Of a DNA stretch of 24,177 bases, positions 6,515 to 17,792 are shown piece after piece; position 1 is the first letter of the stretch; each line of letters starts with the position of its first letter. Made by a program: the position numbers and the translations under genes. The DNA is taken from positions 1 to 24,177 of IMG/VR virus record IMGVR_UViG_3300006802_000558; one strand, 5' to 3'. The notes beneath the pieces were generated by a model. It was not told the origin of the DNA. It was given only the letters and a program-made list of their open reading frames with translations, and searched no databases. Source of the stretch: a virus.

Positions 6515-9500
6515 TTAGTGCCTCGAATTGGCGGCCTCTGCAAACTGCGCTCGCTGAATTGCTCGCACGTTGTTCGCGTCTGACCTTCTGATGCTTTCGG
6601 CGATCTCAGCCAGGAGCGAGTGCGTCGCTTCTGCACCTGACGATGCCTTCTGCTGTTCTGGGGTTTCGATAGTGACCTTCTCGCCCTTGGTTGCACGGAA
6701 GGCGACGACGTTCGTGTCGACCCCTCCTTTGCCGCCAACGGTGAACGAGCCACCAGTTGCAAAGCCCGGCAACTTAGCTGCTTGACTGACGTTGATCGCG
6801 TGCTGCGCGGTATTGGCCGCGTTCTGGGCCGCTCTGGTGTACGAGTTCATCGCACTGACCGCGCCGCCAATCGCTCCCGCCGCCGAACTTGCTGCGCTTG
6901 CTGTTGCATCGCCAAAGTCTCGAGCCGCGAAAGCTGCTCCCTGCGCTGCTGTGACCAGTTGCATGAATGCCGCCGATCCCATCTCGCGCAGACCGCTCAG
7001 GCCCATCTTGGCCAGTTCGGTCGACGACACAAAGCCATCAGACATCGCCTGGGATGCTTGCCGACTGCTCAGATTAATATCCTGCAGAGCCTTGACGCCA
7101 GCAGAGCCCATCTTTGTCAACCCGGAAGCTGAGTAGAGGGCTGAATCGAGGAACTTCTTGAAGTCCTCAGCCGTGCTGTCAGCGAATTGACCGAAGCCCA
7201 TTGACATCGCCTCAGCCTTGGAGATGAACCCGTCTGCCATCGCCTCAGTGGCCTGAGCCATCTGATGTTCCTGCATGACGAACATCTCGACCGCCAACTG
7301 CATATCCGACAGCTCGCCCTTGAACCCTTGACCGAGGCCGTCCATTTGCTCGACCGCGTCAATCAGCGGTTGAGTGATGGACAGCTCGTCCATTAGGGTC
7401 TGGAACTCTTTAACAGAGTATATTACGTTGCCGAATTCATCCTTCATTTCGGCGAGCCCGAACTTCATCGAGCCGAAGATGTCAGCCTCGTCGCCACCGA
7501 AGGCGCCGCGACCTTTCACCTGCAGGTCATCAAAGTATTTGGAGGTCGCCTTGCCCAGCTGGACAAATGTCCTCTCGCCTTTCTCCCCTAGAATCTTGAA
7601 GCCAGCACCCAAGGATTCGCTTGCCACGTTGCCGGATATGACCGGGTCTGACATGGCCTCCTCGAATCGGCCTCTAAGGAGTTTCTTATACTTTGCGGAC
7701 TTCATGAATCCGAAGCCTGCGATGGCTGCTATACCTGCGATGCCTGCTGCGCCAGCTAAGGCGCCGCCAGATCCGCTTAAAGCGCTTGAGACGCCAGAGA
7801 AGCCCTTGCTGATAGCTCCGCTGATCTTGGAGATGATTCCTCCAGCTCCGGCCATACCGCCACCGCCAGAGCCCGCTGCGTTTGCAAACAAGCCGACAGC
7901 TCGATGGCCTGCAACTGCGCCACCGCCGCCAAGGCCTAGAGCGCCCGCGACCTTGGAGGCTATGGATCCAATAAATCCGCCGCCGCTGCCGCCGCCTCCG
8001 ATACTTCCAGCGATGCCACCAAAGATCTTCTCACCGATACCGGCGAAAGCATCCTTTAGGCGGTTGGTGATAACTTCCTTGATGCCGCCAGCGATGGCAT
8101 CTATGACTGTATCTTTTAGCGCCTTGCCGAAATTCTTGAGTGCGTCCTTGTTGCCGTTCGCGATGTCTTTGAAGAGGTTGCCGAACGCATCGCCGATACC
8201 GCCAGCGATATCATCAAACATCCCCTGTGTCGCTTTGGCGAAGTTTCCAGCCCAATCATAGGCATCATTCACCATTTCCTCGCCGAGAAGTTTTACTTCC
8301 TTGCGGGCGCCTTCCATGTTTTCGATCATGGTGGCTTTGGAGATGCCGAACCACTCTGAAAGCCCATCAGCGAAGTCTCTGGCCCAGGTGTTACCGACTG
8401 CGTCCTTGACGATTCCCTCGCCCTGCGCGTTGATCTCTGCCCGGCCTTCCTCGGTGATTCCAACCATTTCATCGAAGGTGTCGCGCCACGACTCCGGGAG
8501 GACTTTCCTAAGCCACTTGATCGGCTTTAGAACTGCCGCGACTACCTTGTCGCCGATGCTCGTAAAAATGTCTACAGCGCCCTCCCAGGCGGCTGTGGCG
8601 TGATCCGTGACAGCGGTCCAGATATTATTGATCGTGACCTTCATCGACTCGAACATCGCGACGACTTTGGTCTTGGCCGAGAAGAAAACTGTTTCAAGCA
8701 TCTTGGCCGGACCATCCCAAAGATGGGACATCCCCGAAGCGATGCTGCTCAGAGAGTCCCAGAGTTGCTCGCCCTGATACTGGACGAACCCTATAGCCTT
8801 CTTAATGGCCTCGGTGGCACTGATGGAGCCTGACGACCACTCAGCAAAGATGGCGATCAATCCGCCAACGGTGCCGATGAGGTTTTCGATGGTGGCGGCC
8901 ACTGCCAAGATCGTCGCGACCATGACATCGCCGAACACCTCTCTCGCAGGCTCAGTGGCCTCCCAGAGTTTCTCGCTGATTTTTACGACCTCGCCAACAA
9001 TCAGAACGAGAGCGTCCTTTACCGCGACCACCGGGGTCATCAGCTCTTCAAACTTGCGTTTGAAATCGCCGTTCTTGATTGATAGAGCAATGACATCGAT
9101 CGCGGCTGAGACTCCGCTCAGAAGGACGGCCAGTCCGCCGACCGCATCCCCGGTCTCGCTCATCATGGTCCCGACCAGCATCTTTGCCGAGTTGGAGACC
9201 ATGGTCATCGAGCGCTCTACCGTGAGCGGCATCTTTTCAAAGTCCGCGCGGATGATGTCGGTTTGGGCCAGGATGGCGTTCGCCAATTCCCTAGAGGTCA
9301 ACTCCCCCTCGACAACCATCTTGCGAAGCTCGCCAGGGGTCTTGCCCAGCGCTGCTGCGATCTGGTTCGCGATCTCCGGCGTGTTCTCAAGGATGGAGTT
9401 GAACTCCTCCGCTCGCACAACGCCGCCAGCCACTGCCTGACCTAACTGGCGCATGGCGTTCCTCATTTCTTCGCCTGACGCACCAGAGGTCACGGCCATC

Positions 9501-9880
9501 ATCTGGAGGTTTTCCGTGATGGCGATGATCTGCTCTTGTGTCGCACCGATGTCAGGTGCTGCACGCGACAAGCTTTCAAAGAGCTTCGCGGTGCTTTCAA
9601 ATTCTGTCCCGGTCTTTTGGGAGATGGCGAAGATCGCCTGCCAGGATCGCTCCCAATCGCCTAAACCTTTTGAGGCTTTCTGGATTCGCGCCTCCAGCAT
9701 CTTGAACTGGTCAGCGCTTCTGATAATCCATTTTGCGCCAGCTAGAGCGGCATAAATCCCGATCAAGCCTTTGAGGCTTGTCATTAGGCTGCCGATACGT
9801 TTCTGGGCGCTCGAAAAAGCCTTGCCGGTTTTATCTCGACCCTTGAGGTCGATATAAATCTTGTTAATGTTTCCGGCCAT
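6515..9880 (-). CDS. Tail length tape measure protein
   Basis: The product has 1121 residues from the ATG at 9880, chosen because AAGGA lies 6 bases upstream; an in-frame TTG at 9895 sits beside the terminator and has no site. The N-terminal 230 residues are the classic tape-measure domain (FKMLEARIQKASKGLGDWER, ATQEQIIAITENLQMMAVTS, VVRAEEFNSILENTPEIA, KTPGELRKMVVEGELTSREL). A long helical middle follows, with hydrophobic segments (about 255-350), then a Gly/Ala-rich section (about 630-735). The C-terminus GGSFTVGGKGGVDTNVVAFR and TKGEKVTIETPEQQ is a hallmark ending. It sets tail length inside the tube and enters the host envelope at injection. At about 0.15 nm per residue the tail would be near 170 nm (inference). 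It lies just after the G/GT chaperones, as in lambda. Confidence 0.95.
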   Translation of the reverse strand: MAGNINKIYIDLKGRDKTGKAFSSAQKRIGSLMTSLKGLIGIYAALAGAKWIIRSADQFKMLEARIQKASKGLGDWERSWQAIFAISQKTGTEFESTAKLFESLSRAAPDIGATQEQIIAITENLQMMAVTSGASGEEMRNAMRQLGQAVAGGVVRAEEFNSILENTPEIANQIAAALGKTPGELRKMVVEGELTSRELANAILAQTDIIRADFEKMPLTVERSMTMVSNSAKMLVGTMMSETGDAVGGLAVLLSGVSAAIDVIALSIKNGDFKRKFEELMTPVVAVKDALVLIVGEVVKISEKLWEATEPAREVFGDVMVATILAVAATIENLIGTVGGLIAIFAEWSSGSISATEAIKKAIGFVQYQGEQLWDSLSSIASGMSHLWDGPAKMLETVFFSAKTKVVAMFESMKVTINNIWTAVTDHATAAWEGAVDIFTSIGDKVVAAVLKPIKWLRKVLPESWRDTFDEMVGITEEGRAEINAQGEGIVKDAVGNTWARDFADGLSEWFGISKATMIENMEGARKEVKLLGEEMVNDAYDWAGNFAKATQGMFDDIAGGIGDAFGNLFKDIANGNKDALKNFGKALKDTVIDAIAGGIKEVITNRLKDAFAGIGEKIFGGIAGSIGGGGSGGGFIGSIASKVAGALGLGGGGAVAGHRAVGLFANAAGSGGGGMAGAGGIISKISGAISKGFSGVSSALSGSGGALAGAAGIAGIAAIAGFGFMKSAKYKKLLRGRFEEAMSDPVISGNVASESLGAGFKILGEKGERTFVQLGKATSKYFDDLQVKGRGAFGGDEADIFGSMKFGLAEMKDEFGNVIYSVKEFQTLMDELSITQPLIDAVEQMDGLGQGFKGELSDMQLAVEMFVMQEHQMAQATEAMADGFISKAEAMSMGFGQFADSTAEDFKKFLDSALYSASGLTKMGSAGVKALQDINLSSRQASQAMSDGFVSSTELAKMGLSGLREMGSAAFMQLVTAAQGAAFAARDFGDATASAASSAAGAIGGAVSAMNSYTRAAQNAANTAQHAINVSQAAKLPGFATGGSFTVGGKGGVDTNVVAFRATKGEKVTIETPEQQKASSGAEATHSLLAEIAESIRRSDANNVRAIQRAQFAEAANSRH

Positions 9881-9928: not shown

Positions 9929-10452
9929 TTAACGTCTGCGCCTGTGGCGCTCCTCTTCTTCCGCTTTGAAATTGAAATACGCAACCCAGGAGCGGAACTC
10001 CAGAGGCGTCATCTGGGTCTTTACTTCTTCGACGGTTTTGCCCAGTCTTAGAGCGACTTCAAAGTATGCTCTTAGCTCTCCGTCGAGGAGGAATTTCCCT
10101 TCAGCTCCTCTGGGTCGGGTGCGATATCCTCAAATGCCCCGATTTTTTCCGAGATTGCAGAAACGAACTCAGGGTCCAACTTGAGCAGCTGCTCTTTGTC
10201 AGCCTGACGGAATCGTCTCTTGCCTTCTTCGGTGTAGCATCGCCAGAAGATCGCTTCCACCTGGGCGGCGAAGAAGTCGCCAGCGTTTATCTTCCTGATG
10301 ATGTGGTCAGCCTGGACTCCGGTTGCTGCTTTGAAGTGCCAGACTTCGTCTAGGTCGGGGTCGATCTCTCGAAGGTCTACAACCTTAGTGTCGTTGTTTA
10401 ATTTCTCTCGAAATTTCCTTTGCAACAGATCGAGCGTTGCATCTTTAGCCAT
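9929..10452 (-). CDS. GT: Frameshifted tail assembly chaperone G-T fusion (-1 shift)
   Basis: A -1 shift at G GGA AAT (10093-10099) joins the first 120 codons of G to an open frame of 54 codons with no start of its own, ending at the TAA at 9929-9931, giving a product of 174 residues. The extension reads FLLDGELRAYFEVALRLGKT, VEEVKTQMTPLEFRSWVAYF and ends in EEEERHRRRR. This is the pattern of the T domain of G/GT chaperones ('alrLGkTv.el...m...Ef..w.ayf'). In lambda the rare GT form binds tail tube protein through T and tape measure through G. The extension lies in a stretch that would otherwise be a 140-base gap. The join must be made at 10093: that base is read twice. Confidence 0.85.
10072..10452 (-). 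CDS. G: Tail assembly chaperone (lambda gpG-like), unshifted product
   Basis: The product has 126 residues from an ATG with GAGGAG 8 bases upstream. It is a small charged protein (LDLLQRKFREKLNNDTKVVD, WHFKAATGVQADHIIRKINA, IFWRCYTEEGKRRFRQADKE) located between the tail tube and the tape measure, the invariant position of the G chaperone. It is not part of the virion in lambda; it coats the tape measure during tail assembly and is degraded or released later. The last six codons after the slippery site G GGA AAT are read only in the unshifted product (ending SSSTES). Family assignment rests on gene order, size and the frameshift described separately. Confidence 0.85.
   Translation of the reverse strand: MAKDATLDLLQRKFREKLNNDTKVVDLREIDPDLDEVWHFKAATGVQADHIIRKINAGDFFAAQVEAIFWRCYTEEGKRRFRQADKEQLLKLDPEFVSAISEKIGAFEDIAPDPEELKGNSSSTES
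10093..10099 (-). promoter_or_regulatory. Programmed -1 ribosomal frameshift site, GGGAAAT
   Basis: The heptamer G GGA AAT fits X XXY YYZ in the G reading frame (AAG GGA AAT). The lambda G/GT site is the near-identical GGGAAAG. A Shine-Dalgarno-like AGAGGAG (10105-10111) ends 5 bases before it, an element that stimulates -1 shifting in bacterial dnaX. A short stem (CTCC/GGAG) is possible just downstream but is weak. Confidence 0.85.
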
Positions 10453-10493: not shown

Positions 10494-10507
10494 CGCCTTA
10501 TTAGGCG
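10494..10507 (-). terminator. Short stem-loop and U-rich run after the tail tube gene; weak terminator
   Basis: CGCCT and AGGCG form a 5-bp stem around an AATA loop that includes the tail tube stop codon. Downstream on the minus strand lie GTCC, TTTCTTATTTC and a run of seven T (10470-10476). The stem is short and the longest T-run is distant, so termination would be partial at best; it may also protect the 3' end of the tail tube message. Confidence 0.35.
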
Positions 10508-10893
10508 ACGGTTCCCTGAGTGACCACGCCGTCAACGCTGAAGGCGTATTCACGTGAGACGATGTCGGCCATCGCCACCGAGATGGACTCGGAGGTGATC
10601 CACGCGCTCATGGAATATTCCACGTCGCCGGTGGAGTCACCCTCTGGATACAGTTTGAGGGTAATCAGGGAGCCAACTGCCAGAGCTTCCTGGCCGGTCG
10701 AATCGGTTGCGTCCCAGTGGCAGGTGATAGAGCCATCGCCGCGGGTGATGCCGACCATGAAGGAGGCCGCTTGATCGCCGCAGGCGGTGGACTCAGCCAC
10801 GTCCGCGCTGCGGTTCAGGGTGAACGCGGAAACTTCCGCAATTTGGTTGGAGTCAAGGAAGACCTTGCCACCTTTTCCGTGTGTCGTTGCCAT
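10501..10893 (-). CDS. Major tail (tube) protein
   Basis: The product has 130 residues, starting directly after the stop of the 60-aa gene, with AGGA 7 bases upstream. The sequence (GGKVFLDSNQIAEVSAFTLN, TACGDQAASFMVGITRGDGS, ITLKLYPEGDSTGDVEYSMS, YAFSVDGVVTQGT) has the alternating strands and 'rgdGsi...wd..d..gq..l..g' core of siphophage tail tube proteins, which stack as hexamer rings. Position immediately before the G/GT chaperones and tape measure confirms the role. The length is short for the family, with no C-terminal Ig-like domain as found in lambda gpV. It should be one of the most abundant tail proteins. Confidence 0.85.
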   Translation of the reverse strand: MATTHGKGGKVFLDSNQIAEVSAFTLNRSADVAESTACGDQAASFMVGITRGDGSITCHWDATDSTGQEALAVGSLITLKLYPEGDSTGDVEYSMSAWITSESISVAMADIVSREYAFSVDGVVTQGTVA

Positions 10894-11076
10894 TTACTTT
10901 TCCTCGTGCACGATTTCAATGATGCCGTCGAATTCAGCCACTTCAGGGTCGACCTTTGGCTTCTTCTTGGCTTTGGGTTTCGGAGTTTCCTCCACTGGTT
11001 TCCATCCTTTGCGGATCATGTTGTCCTCATTGGATGGGTGAACTTCGATAACGGTTTTTCCGTTGGTCAATTTCAT
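10894..11076 (-). CDS. Small conserved-type protein between tail terminator and tail tube
   Basis: The product has 60 residues. The start overlaps the stop of the preceding gene by 4 bases, and the stop abuts the tail tube start, so it is tightly embedded. Residues 1-27 form a small beta motif (MKLTNGKTVIEVHPSNEDNM, then IRKGWKPVE) seen in many siphophage small proteins near the head-tail junction. A Lys/Pro-rich linker follows (KPKAKKKPKVD) and an acidic end (FDGIIEIVHEEK). Function unknown; a role in tail completion or as an assembly factor is only suggested by location. Confidence 0.6.
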   Translation of the reverse strand: MKLTNGKTVIEVHPSNEDNMIRKGWKPVEETPKPKAKKKPKVDPEVAEFDGIIEIVHEEK

Positions 11077-11525
11077 ACGATTACCTCGGCGTCGTTTTCG
11101 AGGGTCGTGTAGATCGCCTCGAAGGTGATTGCAGCTTTTGCGATTGGCCTCTCTCCCTCCGCCAGCAGCTCAATCTCAGTTGATCTCAAAGTGATTTCCT
11201 GGACGAGTGCCTGGAGGGCAGCATTGCCAGCAATGGCCGCCTCAACCTCGGCGCAAACGGTATCGACCAGGTCATCGCTATCGCTCGAAGCCATAACGAA
11301 AGCGCTGATCTCAACGCCGAGCTCTCTGACCAGCAGGAAGCCGGAGGATGATCGAGAGCTCATCTCTTCGTCGACCTCTTCGCTGGTGGTAACTACATTA
11401 AGAGCAGGGGTGTTTGCAGGATCCAGGTTGAAGATTCGGGACTCGTAAACATTCGACCCCGTAGTCGTCAGCCCGGTCACTGCTGCAACCACTGCCTCTC
11501 GAATTTGTTGTCTCGCGTGGGACAT
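11073..11525 (-). CDS. Tail terminator / minor tail protein (gpU- or gpZ-like)
   Basis: The product has 150 residues with AAGG 7 bases before the ATG. The pattern SHARQQIREAVVAAVTGLTT, SNVYESRIFNLDPANTPALN, ELGVEISAFVMASSDSDDLV, VCAEVEAAIAG and GERPIAKAAITFEAIYTTLE is typical of siphophage proteins that cap the head-proximal end of the tail ('vRq.i..av...ltgl.ttg..Vy.sRv..l'). They fix tail length once the tape measure is covered and dock to the head completion proteins. Position just upstream of the tail tube supports this. Only one such gene is found, so the separate U and Z functions of lambda may be combined or one may be missing. Confidence 0.7.
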   Translation of the reverse strand: MSHARQQIREAVVAAVTGLTTTGSNVYESRIFNLDPANTPALNVVTTSEEVDEEMSSRSSSGFLLVRELGVEISAFVMASSDSDDLVDTVCAEVEAAIAGNAALQALVQEITLRSTEIELLAEGERPIAKAAITFEAIYTTLENDAEVIV

Positions 11526-11571: not shown

Positions 11572-12861
11572 CTAAGCAACCCCGGAGACGTTGGATATAT
11601 TTGCCACCAGAGTCGGATTCACCGCGCCCGGATTGGTTGTGCCTATCACTGTTCCGGTCCAGCCAGAAGCATAAGCAGGTTCATATAGCACAACTGCGCC
11701 TAATGAATAAACATCAAAATCTTGGCCACCTGATCCTCTTCTAATACCAAATCTAATATAATCGCTAGTTGATGGAAGATAGGTAGCATTTTCGTGTAAA
11801 AACTCACGATACTCGACAGAAGTTGATAAACCCAAATTGCTTGATTCTGGTATTCCCGTAACTTCGTTTTTATCACCGGGATATTTGTCCAAACAAAAAG
11901 TGTGCGTTGTGCCTGATCCAGTTCCTCTACCAACAAATCCAGCCATCTTAGCGGCAAAAATTGAATCTAATGCTGGTGTAAATGTATCCCCGCTTGGTCC
12001 AGCACGACCACTGTTTATGGTTGCTCCGTCAGCATCAGTTGCAATATATTCCCCGTTTGTGTCTGTGGAGGCGGCACTTACACTCCATGCGGGAGACGTC
12101 TCGTCAAAGGGCAATTCATCTATGAGATCCCATGTCCCAGAATCCCATGCATCACCCGCATCTTGACTTGTATTGTCGCCAGTAAGATATGTTTTACTGA
12201 CAGCAATACCTTTCGGTATGTCTGTTTCTACTAACTGAGAGGTTTTCCAACATACCCATGAGTCAATGTAAATATCACCGTCTCCTGAATCAAGACCCCA
12301 GCAACCCAAACTTGTGGTTGCCGTGCTATTAAATGTATCATTATTAGCATCGCTTGTCTGTGGTGTTCCGCCTAATCCTTCATCAACAGTTACTCTAACT
12401 TCTCCTACTGTGTTAGATAAAACAGCATCAACTCTAACGCTATGCCATGTGTTTACTGTAAAAGGATTTGACACGGTAAGAATATTTGTGGCGGTGCTAT
12501 CAAACACTCTAAGATCACCGTTTGTGTTTAATCGTATATCAAAATTACCAGAAAAATCAAAAATTTCTTGTTCAGTAGACGGAGTTGTATCAGTAAGCCT
12601 TACATTGATAATCCAAGTATAAGATTCTCCGTTTGATATAGCAGTCGGAACTCCACCAGACATAACGGTAAAATCTTTTTGTATAAGTTGATTAGTTGCG
12701 TTATTAGAAAGTTGATAAGCATAATCGCCGCTATAAACTGTCGTGTTTTGTATGCTAGGAGTTCCTAAAACTGAATTTTCTAATTCTCCCGGCGTACTAT
12801 CAGTAGTGAGGCCAACAGTGCCTGAAATACCAGTAAGTGCGGCTTGAAGAGTGCTAGCCAT
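11572..12861 (-). CDS. AT-rich gene for a concanavalin/LamG-like virion protein
   Basis: The product has 429 residues. It starts one base after the stop of the repeat fibre, so the two are probably translated together. Residues about 40-210 fit a lectin/LamG jelly-roll: YSGDYAYQLSNNA, ESYTWIINVRLTD, EIFDFSGNFDIRLNTNGDLR, NTWHSVRVDAVLSN, VGEVRVTVDEG and DGDIYIDSWVCWK. The C-terminal half has a second beta lobe (WDSGTWDLIDELPF, FDVYSLGAVVLYEPAYASGW) and ends in a small strand-rich tail. Base use is very unlike its neighbours: by hand count 12541-12600 is about 32% G+C, against about 65% in a tape-measure line. This suggests recent import or a different source. A sugar-binding appendage partner of the fibre is likely; neither target nor virion position is proven. 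Confidence 0.65.
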   Translation of the reverse strand: MASTLQAALTGISGTVGLTTDSTPGELENSVLGTPSIQNTTVYSGDYAYQLSNNATNQLIQKDFTVMSGGVPTAISNGESYTWIINVRLTDTTPSTEQEIFDFSGNFDIRLNTNGDLRVFDSTATNILTVSNPFTVNTWHSVRVDAVLSNTVGEVRVTVDEGLGGTPQTSDANNDTFNSTATTSLGCWGLDSGDGDIYIDSWVCWKTSQLVETDIPKGIAVSKTYLTGDNTSQDAGDAWDSGTWDLIDELPFDETSPAWSVSAASTDTNGEYIATDADGATINSGRAGPSGDTFTPALDSIFAAKMAGFVGRGTGSGTTHTFCLDKYPGDKNEVTGIPESSNLGLSTSVEYREFLHENATYLPSTSDYIRFGIRRGSGGQDFDVYSLGAVVLYEPAYASGWTGTVIGTTNPGAVNPTLVANISNVSGVA

Positions 12862-12862
12862 A

Positions 12863-15800
12863 CTATGCCACCGTCACCCAAGTTTTATCCGGATCAAAAT
12901 AAATAACATCGGCCGATAAAGCGTAGCCGACAACCCTTACGATTGCATTCGAAGTCGTTGGTGCCGTCTGGGTGAACTCCCCAGCGGTCTCAGACACATA
13001 GAGAATCCCACCAACAGTCCACGCCCAAGCATCATTTCTTATAACAGCCGGTCCAGCCGTCACTTTCACCGGGTTCGATGCGGTGCCCGCCTCTAATGCG
13101 CAAGCAAGCATCACTGGCCCAGCGGTAGCAGACGCGGATGCGTCAACGTCAACCCATTGCGCCGACCCGTTCAGATAAACGAGATCACCCATTGCGAGCG
13201 TTTGACCTGCGCTCAGGTCATTAAACGTAAACCCGTTGGCCGTTGCATCTGTATCAGGGATGGCGTCGATCTTGATCTCGTGAACGTCGGTGAGATCAAA
13301 TCCGGCCATATTGATGTCAGCCGCTTGAGTCGAAGTGATATAGGAACCAAGGTCACTAATCTGACTCTCAGTTATAGTGAGAGCCGCCTCGTGGGCTGTA
13401 ACGTCTCCCTCGGTCACTGTATAACTGGTGATGTAGCCCGAGTCGTTCGTAAACGTCGACACGTTTGTCGGTGTGCCACTGAGGTCGCTGTAGTCGAGAA
13501 CTGCATCGACCCAGTTTGTCCCGTTGTGCCGGAGCACTTCGCCAGATGCCGCGCCAGTGATGGTTACGTCCGAATGGCCGCCAATGGACCCGAGGGTCGT
13601 CAGGTAGCCAGAGTCGTTCGTAAAGGTCGACACGTTTGTCGGCGTACCGGACAAGTCCGAGTAAGCCAGTTGCGTATCGACCCACGCAGATCCGTTGTAG
13701 CGGATGACCTCGCCAGTTGCGGCGCTAGAGATCGTAACGTCAGTCAGATCATTAAGCGCTCCACCTCCGCCACCAGTGGCATCGGTGTCGTTGATCCAGT
13801 TCGTGCCGTTGTACTTAAGAACCTGCCCATTGCTGGGGGTCGTGATAACAACGTCGGTGTGGCTATTGATTGACCCCGTTGAGGTCAAATAAACCCCTAG
13901 ATCGCTGATCTGACTTTCGGTGATCGTCAGCGCGGCCTCGTGGGCAGTGACATCACCCTCGGTTACCGTGTAGTCGGTGATATATCCTGAATCGTTCGTG
14001 AACGTCGACACATTGGTCGGTGTTCCGGTGAGATCAGAATAGGCCAGTTGCGCATCGACCCAGGCTGTCCCGTTGAATCTTAGAACCTCTCCCGTAGCTG
14101 CACCAGTGATCGTGACGTCGCTATGCCCGCTGATCGACCCAAGGGTTGTCAGGTAGGCTTGAAGGTCGCTAATCTGGCTCTCAGTGATACTGAGTGCCGC
14201 CTGATGGGCCGTTACGTCACTCTCGGTCACGGTATAGCCCGTGATATAGCCCGAGTCGTTGGCGAAGGCTGAGACGTTCGTGGGAGCGCCTGTCAGATCG
14301 CTGTAAGGGAGGGCTGTGTTTAGCCACGCCGTCCCACTGTAGCGCAGGACATTCCCAGCTGCCGGAGTCGTTACTGTTACGTCGGTGTGACTGTCGATGC
14401 TGCCGGTCGAGGTGAGATAACTGCCGAGATCGCTGATCTGACTTTCGGTGATTGTCAGTGCCGCCTCATGCGCAGTCACGTCGCCCTCGGTCACTGTATA
14501 ACCAGTGATATATCCAGAGTCATTCGTGAACTGGGAGACGTTGGTCGGTGTTCCTGACAGATCTCCATAAGCCAGTTGAGCGTCAACCCAGTTGGCCCCG
14601 TCGTACCGGAGAACCTCTCCAGTCGCCGCTGCCGTAACCACAACATCAGTGTGGCTGTTGATCGATCCGGTTGAGGTCAGGTAGGACCCGAGGTCGCTAA
14701 TCTGAGATTCCGTGATCGTCAGAGCCGCCTCATGCGCGGTGACGTCGCCTTGCGTTACGGTGTAGTCCGTGATATAGCCCGAGTCGTTGGTAAAGCTCGA
14801 CACATTGGTCGGCGTTCCGCTGAGATCGGAATAAGCTAGAGTTGCATCCACCCAGGCGGTCCCATTCCAGCGCAGGACTTCGCCCGTAGTCGGTGCAGTG
14901 ATCGTGACATCTGAATGACCACCGATTGGCCCTAGTGCCGTCAAATATGCGCCGAGGTCACTGATCTGCGACTCGGTAATGGTCAGGGCTGCCTCATGAG
15001 CTGTCACGTCACCTTCTGTGACAGTGTAGCCCGTTATGTAGCCCGAATCATTGGTGAAGCTCGACACGTTCGTCGGGGTTCCACTAAGGTCGCCATAAGC
15101 CAGAGTGGCATCAACCCAAGCGGAGCCGTTGTATCTCAGAACCTCACCAGTTGTAGCGCCCGTGATCGTGACATCAGTATGCCCGCCGATAGAGCCGACA
15201 GACGTGAGATATCCTGAATCGTTCGTGAACGTGGAGACGTTCGTTGGCGTCCCTGAGAGGTCGCTATAGGCAAGCGTCGCATCAACCCAGGCGGAGCCAT
15301 TGTACCGAAGCACCTCACCCGTCGCCGCCGATGTAATGGTGACGTCGGTGATGTCGTTCAAAGCACCGCCACCTCCGCCAGTGGAATCGGTGTCGTTGAT
15401 CCAGTTGGTCCCGTTGTATTTCAGCACCTGGCCATTCGATGGCGTGGTGATTACAACGTCGGTGTGCGAATTAATGCTCCCCGTCGAGGTCAGATAGGCC
15501 CCGAGATCGGAGATTTGCGACTCGGTGATTGTGAGAGCCGCTTCGTGATTGGTGACGTCGGCCTCGGTCACCGTATAGTCGGTGATGTAACCGCTGTCGT
15601 TTGTGAAGGTTGAGACGTTAGTCGGTGTCCCACTGAGATCACCATAAGCGAGGGTCGCGTTGACCCAGGCAGTCCCATTCCAGCGCAACACCTGAGCTGC
15701 CGAAGGCGTGGTCACTGTGACATCAGTGTGACCGTTGACACTTCCCAAAGAGGTCAGATAAGCCTGGAGATCGGTGATCTGACTTTCGGTGATGTTTAAG

Positions 15801-17506
15801 GCTGCCTCGTGAGCAGTGACGTCTCCCTCGGTGACGGTATATCCGGTTATGTAGCCGGAATCGTTCGTGAAGGCGGACACGTTGCTCGGTGTGCCGCTCA
15901 GATCGCTGTAATCCAGCGTCGCATCCACCCAAGCAGTCCCGTTGAATCTTAGGACTTCTCCGGTAGCTGCTGCGGTAACAGTGACATCGGTGTGGCCGCC
16001 AATGCTGCCCAAGCTCGTAAGATATGCGCCGAGGTCAGATATCTGGCTCTCGGTGATCGTTAAAGCTGCCTCGTGAGCTGTGACATCACCCTGCGTCACG
16101 GTGTATCCCGTGATGTATCCGGCGTCGTTGGTAAATGCCGAGACGTTGCTCGGGGTGTTTGCCAGGTCAGCGTAGTCGAGCTGTGTGTCGACCCAGTTGG
16201 TGCCGTTGAATCGCAGCACCTCGCCAGTCGCGGCTGACGTGATGAGGACGTCAGACAGCTCATCGAGCTGCGTCGCGCCTGATCCGTCGTTGTTTTGGTT
16301 GGTCCAGGATGTCCCGTTGTAGGTGAGGACCTGTCCGGTTGATGGCGTTCCCAGTGAGACATCGCTCAGGTCGTCAATATTCTGCGGCGTTGCATCCGCC
16401 ACATTAACCCAGTGCGTCCCGTTAAATTTAAGGAACTGACCCGTAGATGCTGACGTGATAATGACGTCATCGATGTCGTCGATATTGATGACCTTGTCGT
16501 CAGTGTCATTGATCCAGTTGGTGCCGTTGAATTTGAGTACCTGACCCGCAGATGGCACGCCAGTCGCAACATCAGAAAGGTCGTTCAGTTGTAGAGCGCC
16601 CTCGTCAGCACTGTTGACCCATCCAGCGCCGTCCCATTTAAGAACTTCGCCAGTAGAGGGGGTCGTGACCGTGACGTCGGTGTGACTGTCGATGCTGCCG
16701 GTCGAGGTCAGATAGGCCTGAAGATCAGAGATTTGGCTCTCAGTGATTGAGAGCGCTGCTTCGTGAGCCGTGACCTGAGACTCCGGTAAGGACCCGACGA
16801 TTTCGCTGTAGTCGACGTCAGCGTTGCCCCACTGAACGCCATCCCATTTCAGGACTTCGCCAGTAGCCGGGACAGCGATCACTACGTCGTCAAGCTCTGA
16901 CAGGTTTTCCTTGTCCAGATCGGGCGCAGCAATCCATTCCGCGCCATCAAATACGAGAACGTCGTTGGTATTAGGCGCTGGGATGTTGGTATCCGTCAGC
17001 TCCTCAAGGGAAAACGACGCGGTAAAGGTGTCGGTGTCATTGACCCACGCGGAGCCATTCCACTTCAAGACCTCATCGATCTGCGGCGATGTAATAGTGA
17101 CGTCCGAGAGATCGTCAAGCGCGTTCGAGCCTGCGCCAATGATAACGCCCGTCAGGTAGTCATTCAGGTTGGTGATCGCGCTGGCAAGGCTGATACCTGC
17201 CGCTGCGTCTTCGATTGTGATGTTGTTCCAATCGAGCCCCTTGATGACGGGCTTCTGGCCCTTGATGGTGCGAATCCAGATCTCGTCCAGATATTCGCCC
17301 TCGACCGCTTCCAGATAGTTTACTGGGAAGTTGTCGCCGTTATCCAGAAGGATGGTTGCACCGGACGAGTCCTTCGAGAAGTCGAGCTCGAACCCGGTAG
17401 GCGCAATGATGGATGGGGTGGTGGTTGCTGCGTTCTTTGAGAGCTTATAGTTGTCCGAAGAATAGAGGTTCGCGTCTATCTTTTGTGGTCGCGGCTGCTT
17501 TGCCAT
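12863..17506 (-). CDS. Giant repeat fibre at the head-tail gene junction
   Basis: The product has 1547 residues. Residues 1-128 form a unique N-terminal, probably anchoring, domain (FELDFSKDSSGATILLDNGD, YLDEIWIRTIKGQKPVIKGL). Residues about 129-1394 are repeats: first variable short units of about 35 residues ('LsDV.it.p..GeVLkwnGt.Wvn'), then nine units of about 88 residues with HTDVTVT, GEVLRFNGTAWVDA, DLSGTPTNVSTFTNDSGYIT, VTEGDVTAHEAAL and ITESQISDL, mixed with two 39+56-residue variants carrying GGGGG. Residues 1395-1547 are a C-terminal domain (AMGDLVYLNGSAQWVDVDA, ACALEAGTASNPVKV, YFDPDKTWV). Such fibres are trimeric shafts in other phages. The gene sits between head-completion and tail-terminator genes, not after the tail tip, so a head or neck fibre is plausible. 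Longest ORF in the window. Confidence 0.8.
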   Translation of the reverse strand: MAKQPRPQKIDANLYSSDNYKLSKNAATTTPSIIAPTGFELDFSKDSSGATILLDNGDNFPVNYLEAVEGEYLDEIWIRTIKGQKPVIKGLDWNNITIEDAAAGISLASAITNLNDYLTGVIIGAGSNALDDLSDVTITSPQIDEVLKWNGSAWVNDTDTFTASFSLEELTDTNIPAPNTNDVLVFDGAEWIAAPDLDKENLSELDDVVIAVPATGEVLKWDGVQWGNADVDYSEIVGSLPESQVTAHEAALSITESQISDLQAYLTSTGSIDSHTDVTVTTPSTGEVLKWDGAGWVNSADEGALQLNDLSDVATGVPSAGQVLKFNGTNWINDTDDKVINIDDIDDVIITSASTGQFLKFNGTHWVNVADATPQNIDDLSDVSLGTPSTGQVLTYNGTSWTNQNNDGSGATQLDELSDVLITSAATGEVLRFNGTNWVDTQLDYADLANTPSNVSAFTNDAGYITGYTVTQGDVTAHEAALTITESQISDLGAYLTSLGSIGGHTDVTVTAAATGEVLRFNGTAWVDATLDYSDLSGTPSNVSAFTNDSGYITGYTVTEGDVTAHEAALNITESQITDLQAYLTSLGSVNGHTDVTVTTPSAAQVLRWNGTAWVNATLAYGDLSGTPTNVSTFTNDSGYITDYTVTEADVTNHEAALTITESQISDLGAYLTSTGSINSHTDVVITTPSNGQVLKYNGTNWINDTDSTGGGGGALNDITDVTITSAATGEVLRYNGSAWVDATLAYSDLSGTPTNVSTFTNDSGYLTSVGSIGGHTDVTITGATTGEVLRYNGSAWVDATLAYGDLSGTPTNVSSFTNDSGYITGYTVTEGDVTAHEAALTITESQISDLGAYLTALGPIGGHSDVTITAPTTGEVLRWNGTAWVDATLAYSDLSGTPTNVSSFTNDSGYITDYTVTQGDVTAHEAALTITESQISDLGSYLTSTGSINSHTDVVVTAAATGEVLRYDGANWVDAQLAYGDLSGTPTNVSQFTNDSGYITGYTVTEGDVTAHEAALTITESQISDLGSYLTSTGSIDSHTDVTVTTPAAGNVLRYSGTAWLNTALPYSDLTGAPTNVSAFANDSGYITGYTVTESDVTAHQAALSITESQISDLQAYLTTLGSISGHSDVTITGAATGEVLRFNGTAWVDAQLAYSDLTGTPTNVSTFTNDSGYITDYTVTEGDVTAHEAALTITESQISDLGVYLTSTGSINSHTDVVITTPSNGQVLKYNGTNWINDTDATGGGGGALNDLTDVTISSAATGEVIRYNGSAWVDTQLAYSDLSGTPTNVSTFTNDSGYLTTLGSIGGHSDVTITGAASGEVLRHNGTNWVDAVLDYSDLSGTPTNVSTFTNDSGYITSYTVTEGDVTAHEAALTITESQISDLGSYITSTQAADINMAGFDLTDVHEIKIDAIPDTDATANGFTFNDLSAGQTLAMGDLVYLNGSAQWVDVDASASATAGPVMLACALEAGTASNPVKVTAGPAVIRNDAWAWTVGGILYVSETAGEFTQTAPTTSNAIVRVVGYALSADVIYFDPDKTWVTVA
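13325..17122 (-). repeat. In-frame repeat array (main unit about 264 bp, 88 residues)
   Basis: About 3.8 kb of tandem coding repeats within the fibre gene. Nine units are close to 88 residues; two composite units of 39 plus 56 residues, each with a GGGGG run, lie 535 residues (1605 bp) apart; the first part of the array has shorter units of about 35 residues. Copies are nearly the same as protein but differ at most synonymous sites, so exact DNA repeats are short. Confidence 0.9.
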
Positions 17507-17516
17507 TCCTTTGCCC

Positions 17517-17792
17517 CTAGCTGTAAATCAAGATCAAGGCTGTAAAGCCCTCGCCGTCATCTTCTTTTCCGACGACTTCGTAATTGGTTCCGCTATAAGT
17601 AAGCGTGTCGCCGTGATTGACACCTGAGACATCTATAGAGCGGCACTCGAAAACGGGATACTCGCTCTCGATATCGCCGACGACTTTGAATTCCCTGTCG
17701 AGAATCCCTCGCACTGTCGCCGCGTTGATCGTTGCATCTACGCCGAAATCAGTGAGAAGTTGAAGTCTGTCGTTGTCGCTTTCGACTGCCAT
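17517..17792 (-). CDS. Head completion / head-tail joining protein (gpFII-like)
   Basis: The product has 91 residues with AAGGA 7 bases before the ATG. The order of elements, LLTDFGVDATINAATVRGIL, an acidic strand, FECRSIDVSGVNHGDTLTYS, YEVVGKEDDGEGFTALILI, matches the small beta-barrel head-tail joining proteins related to lambda gpFII ('..DFGv.vt..g..f.gifd...v', 'l.crs.dv.gl..Gd.v...g..y.V'). It plugs the portal vestibule side and gives the surface on which the tail docks. It follows the capsid gene, as expected, and stops 10 bases before the repeat fibre. Confidence 0.75.
   Translation of the reverse strand: MAVESDNDRLQLLTDFGVDATINAATVRGILDREFKVVGDIESEYPVFECRSIDVSGVNHGDTLTYSGTNYEVVGKEDDGEGFTALILIYS

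Follow-up and report, generated by a model that had tools for sequence, protein, structure and literature searches.

The window, a stretch of 24,177 nucleotides that makes up the whole of the analysed DNA and comes from an uncultivated virus record, is a fragment of a lambda/HK97-type tailed phage. Its head genes comprise a lambda-type terminase and portal, an HK97-type protease-capsid fusion and a head attachment gene, and its tail genes follow in the order terminator, major tail protein, G, T and tape measure. The features considered here all lie on the minus strand.

11073-11525, minus strand: tail terminator (PHROG 4204, E 1e-19), given for gene-order context
10501-10893, minus strand: major tail protein (PHROG 10528, E 2e-16), the presumed partner of T
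10072-10452, minus strand: G-type tail assembly chaperone of 126 aa, the zero-frame product (ORF, PHROG 344, 2OB9 fold match)
10105-10111, minus strand: SD-like AGAGGAG (anti-SD duplex -8.3 kcal/mol), conserved in relatives
10093-10099, minus strand: slippery heptamer G GGA AAT in the phase of G (in-frame X XXY YYZ at the homologous position in 166 of 166 loci)
9929-10093, minus strand: T extension in the -1 frame, 54 codons and a stop, with no start codon at its 5' end (PHROG 337, PHROG 26456, leave-out T profile)
6515-9880, minus strand: tape measure protein (PHROG 3519, E 9e-63), the presumed partner of G

The heptamer is thus located between the genes for the major tail and tape measure proteins, as is characteristic of the G/GT family. 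Two further ORFs, also on the minus strand, separate the tail terminator from the head closure gene (17517-17792). One is a repetitive ORF of 1547 aa (12863-17506) with tail-fibre-like matches to PHROGs 9729 and 9627, and the other, of 429 aa (11572-12861), belongs to no known family. This is an unusual location for a fibre gene, and the 1547-aa ORF possibly encodes a head or neck fibre.

The G ORF begins with ATG and runs for 126 codons to a TAA at 10072-10074. Its product alone matches the tail assembly chaperones of PHROG 344 at E 1.7e-4; of 45 G proteins that were aligned, 27 match this family too. Among solved structures, the HK97 chaperone 2OB9 comes closest to the AlphaFold model of G (pLDDT 86.6): Foldseek gives a probability of 1.00, yet an E value of 0.008, and structural comparison gives Z 9.0 across 104 residues, far ahead of the next entry. 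The zero-frame product therefore has both the fold and the family assignment of a tail chaperone. A profile search of PDB sequences with G found no match, and neither G nor T of the window had a match above cut-off in Pfam and NCBIfam.

The preliminary description of this DNA had placed a perfect in-frame heptamer six codons before the G stop, and this was borne out: GGGAAAT is read as AAG GGA AAT in G, with six codons and then TAA, and the -1 frame stays open beyond the G stop. Across the genes of the window, in-frame XXXYYYZ sites of any type occur 17 times in 7588 codon steps. Those of the form XXXAAAZ with X = A, G or C occur only twice, once as the GGGAAAT site and once inside the portal gene, so that a chance site close to one chosen stop is unlikely (about 0.3% for a site within ten codons of a given stop, before an open -1 frame with a T domain is required). 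It is the T domain in the opened frame that settles the matter against a chance heptamer. The A-site codon at the window site is AAU (Asn). A literature search for GGGAAAT or GGGAAAU as a slip site returned no relevant paper; in the haloarchaeal virus HCTV-1, G_GGA_AAC has been reported (PMC5009743). On the 3' side of the window site (10028-10087, minus strand) a stem of -18.2 kcal/mol can be drawn, but its z of -2.2 in a 60-nt stretch weakens to -1.35 in 78 nt and to -0.39 when the stretch is widened, and no convincing 3' stimulatory stem-loop was found among these.

After the heptamer the -1 frame reads TTC CTC CTC GAC GGA GAG and continues to 54 codons in all, ending in a TAA at 9929-9931, which gives a GT fusion of 174 aa; extension and product length agree with what had been predicted. 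The earlier remark that these codons lack a start of their own holds for the 5' end of the frame and fails further in, where a sole ATG (10010-10012) forms the thirtieth codon from the slip. It lies mid-domain, too late to provide a whole T domain. A T-domain pattern had also been suggested for the peptide, along with a profile search against T families, and such searches matched it to PHROG 26456 (E 6e-9) and PHROG 337 (E 4e-8). Lambda T likewise matches PHROG 337 (4.8e-7), and the family is common to the T proteins of the window, lambda and Bcep176, although BLASTP of window T against lambda T gave no match. Furthermore, a T profile built from ten relatives with the window left out matched the window stretch at E 3e-17, and in all six frames of the window the same profile found no other stretch below E 1.

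Relatives were surveyed by searching some 250 fetched loci with an iterated T profile, and T was found in 173. The T frame is -1 relative to a G-sized ORF in 166 of these, and every one of the 166 carries an in-frame heptamer in the overlap: A AAA AAC in 111, A AAA AAG in 44, G GGA AAC in six, A AAA AAA in four and G GGA AAT in one, the window itself. These counts include near-identical loci, which clustering reduced to 75 representatives. Most relatives use AAC, so that Asn in the A site is usual for this group. Beyond the G stop, substitutions in the T frame fall on codon positions 1, 2 and 3 in the proportion 181/79/352 (46 independent pairs of relatives), showing that this frame behaves as coding sequence.

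Seven of the 173 loci were scored as exceptions. In three (L176, L195 and L212) no X XXY YYZ site was found near the end of G, and the T motif, near 1900-2180, lies in another frame than the G-like ORF; these may use a different slip sequence. In L175 (about 1982-2174) the T motif is +1 relative to the G-like ORF, and a +1 chaperone frameshift is possible there. L167 and L198 show what are apparently small phase changes, and the seventh, Bcep176, was mis-scored by the script and has an in-frame AAAAAAG. In L002 (3673-3751), a more distant tape-measure relative, the ORF preceding the tape measure gene carries an in-phase T TTT TTT close to its end, and the open -1 frame encodes a different type of T.

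Eleven annotated phages, found via the major tail protein or T, were also read. In all 11 an in-frame A AAA AAC or A AAA AAG is present and the -1 frame runs open across the T motif; the two parts are annotated as joined in Bcep176 alone. In nine isolate phage records (L006-L014, from Pelagibacter, Roseobacter and Sinorhizobium), all with an in-frame slip site, T is left blank or represented by a 36-aa fragment. Other routes to relatives yielded little. Single-protein scans of viral contigs with the window G or major tail protein found no relative, those with the Bcep176 and L016 G proteins found few, and a T alignment scan of genome contigs gave no confirmed relative; an alignment of eight major tail proteins was dropped as a scan query for being too diverse.

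The locus therefore almost certainly represents the conserved programmed -1 ribosomal frameshift that yields G and GT in long-tailed phages, as the preliminary description had proposed; gene order, the fold of G, the PHROG matches, the leave-out profile and the 166 of 166 slip sites all support it, and from these we infer the slippage itself. Could T be instead a separate small gene, with its own start and coupled to the end of G, for which GAGGA serves as the ribosome binding site? The SD-like element does stand just before the T region, and a small separate T ORF is annotated in the records of lambda and Nitrincola 1M3-16. This is nonetheless very unlikely, given that the window T frame has no ATG, GTG or TTG in the 28 codons after the slip and that its only ATG is mid-domain. 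Among the 75 representatives, 39 have no start within 15 codons and ATG is present in only 15, and a separate T would leave the in-frame heptamer of all 166 loci unexplained.

Some relatives have 8 or 9 consecutive A at the site, which would suit a fusion made by transcriptional slippage on a homopolymer, but the window site consists of GGG AAA only, with no long run, and most relatives keep a phase-specific heptamer, which makes this account extremely improbable. The origin of the window in an uncultivated virus record also brings to mind a sequencing or assembly error, the real phage having G and T in one frame. That is barely conceivable when the same -1 relation and slip site recur in isolated phages that were sequenced separately, and in 166 loci in all, and as a general account assembly error is refuted by the isolate phages.

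Under the programmed -1 frameshift, the majority of ribosomes would read G to its stop and produce the 126-residue chaperone. A minority, with GGA in the P site and AAU in the A site, would shift back by one base at G GGA AAU and continue in the -1 frame to give the GT fusion of 174 residues. As in lambda, the G part would bind the tape measure protein and the T part would recruit the major tail protein, and neither G nor GT would be kept in the virion. The anti-SD of 16S rRNA probably pairs with GAGGA, 6 nt upstream, an interaction that may tune the rate of slipping.

The preliminary description had noted AGAGGAG 5 bases upstream of the heptamer, and this element is indeed found at 10105-10111, ending 5 nt upstream; the GAGGA core common to relatives (10106-10110) ends 6 nt upstream, in the context GAGGA GCTGAA GGGAAAT. 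Across the 75 representatives, the energy of anti-SD pairing has a sharp peak 4-6 nt upstream of the heptamer, averaging about -4.9 kcal/mol there, and from 10 nt on it ranges from -0.8 to +0.8 kcal/mol. GAGGA or a similar core ends exactly 6 nt before the heptamer in 44 of the 75, and within 4-7 nt in 59. Its presence shows no clear difference between heptamer types (31 of 47 with AAAAAAC, 11 of 19 with AAAAAAG). The element at 6 nt was observed in Bcep176, Nitrincola 1M3-16 and L263, and is absent at that spacing from lambda and HK97.

At the protein level, codon -3 is Glu in 60 of the 75 representatives and codon -2 is Glu or Asp in 65. Where codon -3 is Glu and the codon after it starts with GA (n = 54), codon -3 is GAG in 43 and GAA in 11, compared with GAG:GAA backgrounds of 142:340 across the other genes of these loci and 37:89 within G itself. 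Locus-specific expectation is 17 GAG, and 43 was never reached in 200000 simulations. The excess is present in AT-rich loci (21 of 30 vs 6.6 expected) and in GC-richer loci (22 of 24 vs 10.5 expected), and the GAG fraction stays at 0.82-0.85 after collapse to between 20 and 40 protein clusters. Such a preference, in a test that is not fully phylogeny-corrected, points to selection acting on the RNA in addition to any Glu-Glu/Asp motif. Upstream anti-SD complementarity under selection at the nucleotide level is a mark of SD-stimulated -1 signals such as those of dnaX and IS elements.

The suggestion that AGAGGAG has a part in the shift is supported by the GAG codon choice in relatives, although the spacing falls outside the published -1 optimum. 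SD stimulators act at 9-14 nt for -1 shifts and at 3 nt for +1 shifts (PMC5009743), and dnaX in the E. coli MG1655 record has its SD at 10 nt, against 6 nt in the window and most relatives. For these phages, many in number and often marine among those sampled, there is about an even chance that the position-fixed GAGGA is a 5' regulator of the -1 shift that sets the G:GT ratio. Somewhat less probable is that it is no stimulator and either damps slippage or is a protein motif, the acidic end of G. The spacing of 6 nt, too short for the -1 range and longer than the +1 value, speaks for this reading, as do the conserved acidic residues at codons -3 and -2, but a pure protein motif leaves GAG over GAA unexplained (43:11 vs 142:340, stable under clustering). 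A regulatory GAGGA may either stimulate or damp slippage. In the window, TCCTCC just 3' of the heptamer could also pair with GAGGAG, which is impossible in most relatives, where the G stop directly follows the heptamer (58 of 75). No description of a conserved SD-like element at 6 nt was found in a literature search whose reach ended short of the original 2004 survey.

The mechanism itself is textbook material. The tail-chaperone frameshift was reportedly already described by Xu, Hendrix and Duda in 2004, as a citing review has it, and what is new here is an additional G/GT case with the rare heptamer G GGA AAT. With raw sequence as the starting point, the case confirms a gene product that annotations usually overlook, and suggests a rule for finding GT in such phages: an in-frame heptamer, often with GAGGA 6 nt before it, and, ahead of the tape measure gene, a short T motif. 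A further question is what effect an SD-like element with such unusual spacing has on -1 shifting; if GAGGA is a regulator, it acts at a spacing outside the described ranges.

Among known systems, lambda gpG/gpGT is alike in gene order, in the -1 direction and in a GGGAAA-Z heptamer a few codons before the G stop; its sequence, read directly, has GGGAAAG at the same place, as had been claimed. The T motif (DGEL, M..xE[YF]xxW) directly follows the heptamer there as well, and T belongs to PHROG 337. Lambda differs in its A-site codon (AAG, Lys, compared with AAU, Asn, with Z = T in the window), in the length of T (about 144 aa vs 54 aa), in lacking GAGGA 6 nt upstream and in a G not detectably similar to that of the window by sequence. 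Its low-level -1 shift yields about one gpGT per thirty gpG, and its tape measure protein is bound by the G part and its major tail protein by the T part (PMC5009743). HK97 gp13/gp14 (PDB 2OB9) provides the best fold match to window G, and its fusion is annotated as a -1 frameshift product, but identity is only 11% and GAGGA is missing at 6 nt.

Genes 69/69' of Burkholderia phage Bcep176 are annotated as lambda G/T equivalents joined by a frameshift. Their T motif is 40% identical to window T over 42 residues, and the in-frame slip site has GAGGA 6 nt upstream; T is longer and the heptamer is AAAAAAG. The Roseobacter CRP, Pelagibacter HTVC and Sinorhizobium phi3LM21 phages have the same order of major tail protein (32-42% identity), G, T and tape measure, with T in an unannotated gap or, in phi3LM21, beside a 36-aa fragment. 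They differ in having AAAAAAC or AAAAAAG heptamers, and the frameshift is absent from their annotation. E. coli dnaX likewise combines an X XXY YYZ site with an upstream SD-like element, but at a spacing of 10 nt compared with 6 nt in the window, and its shift shortens the product.
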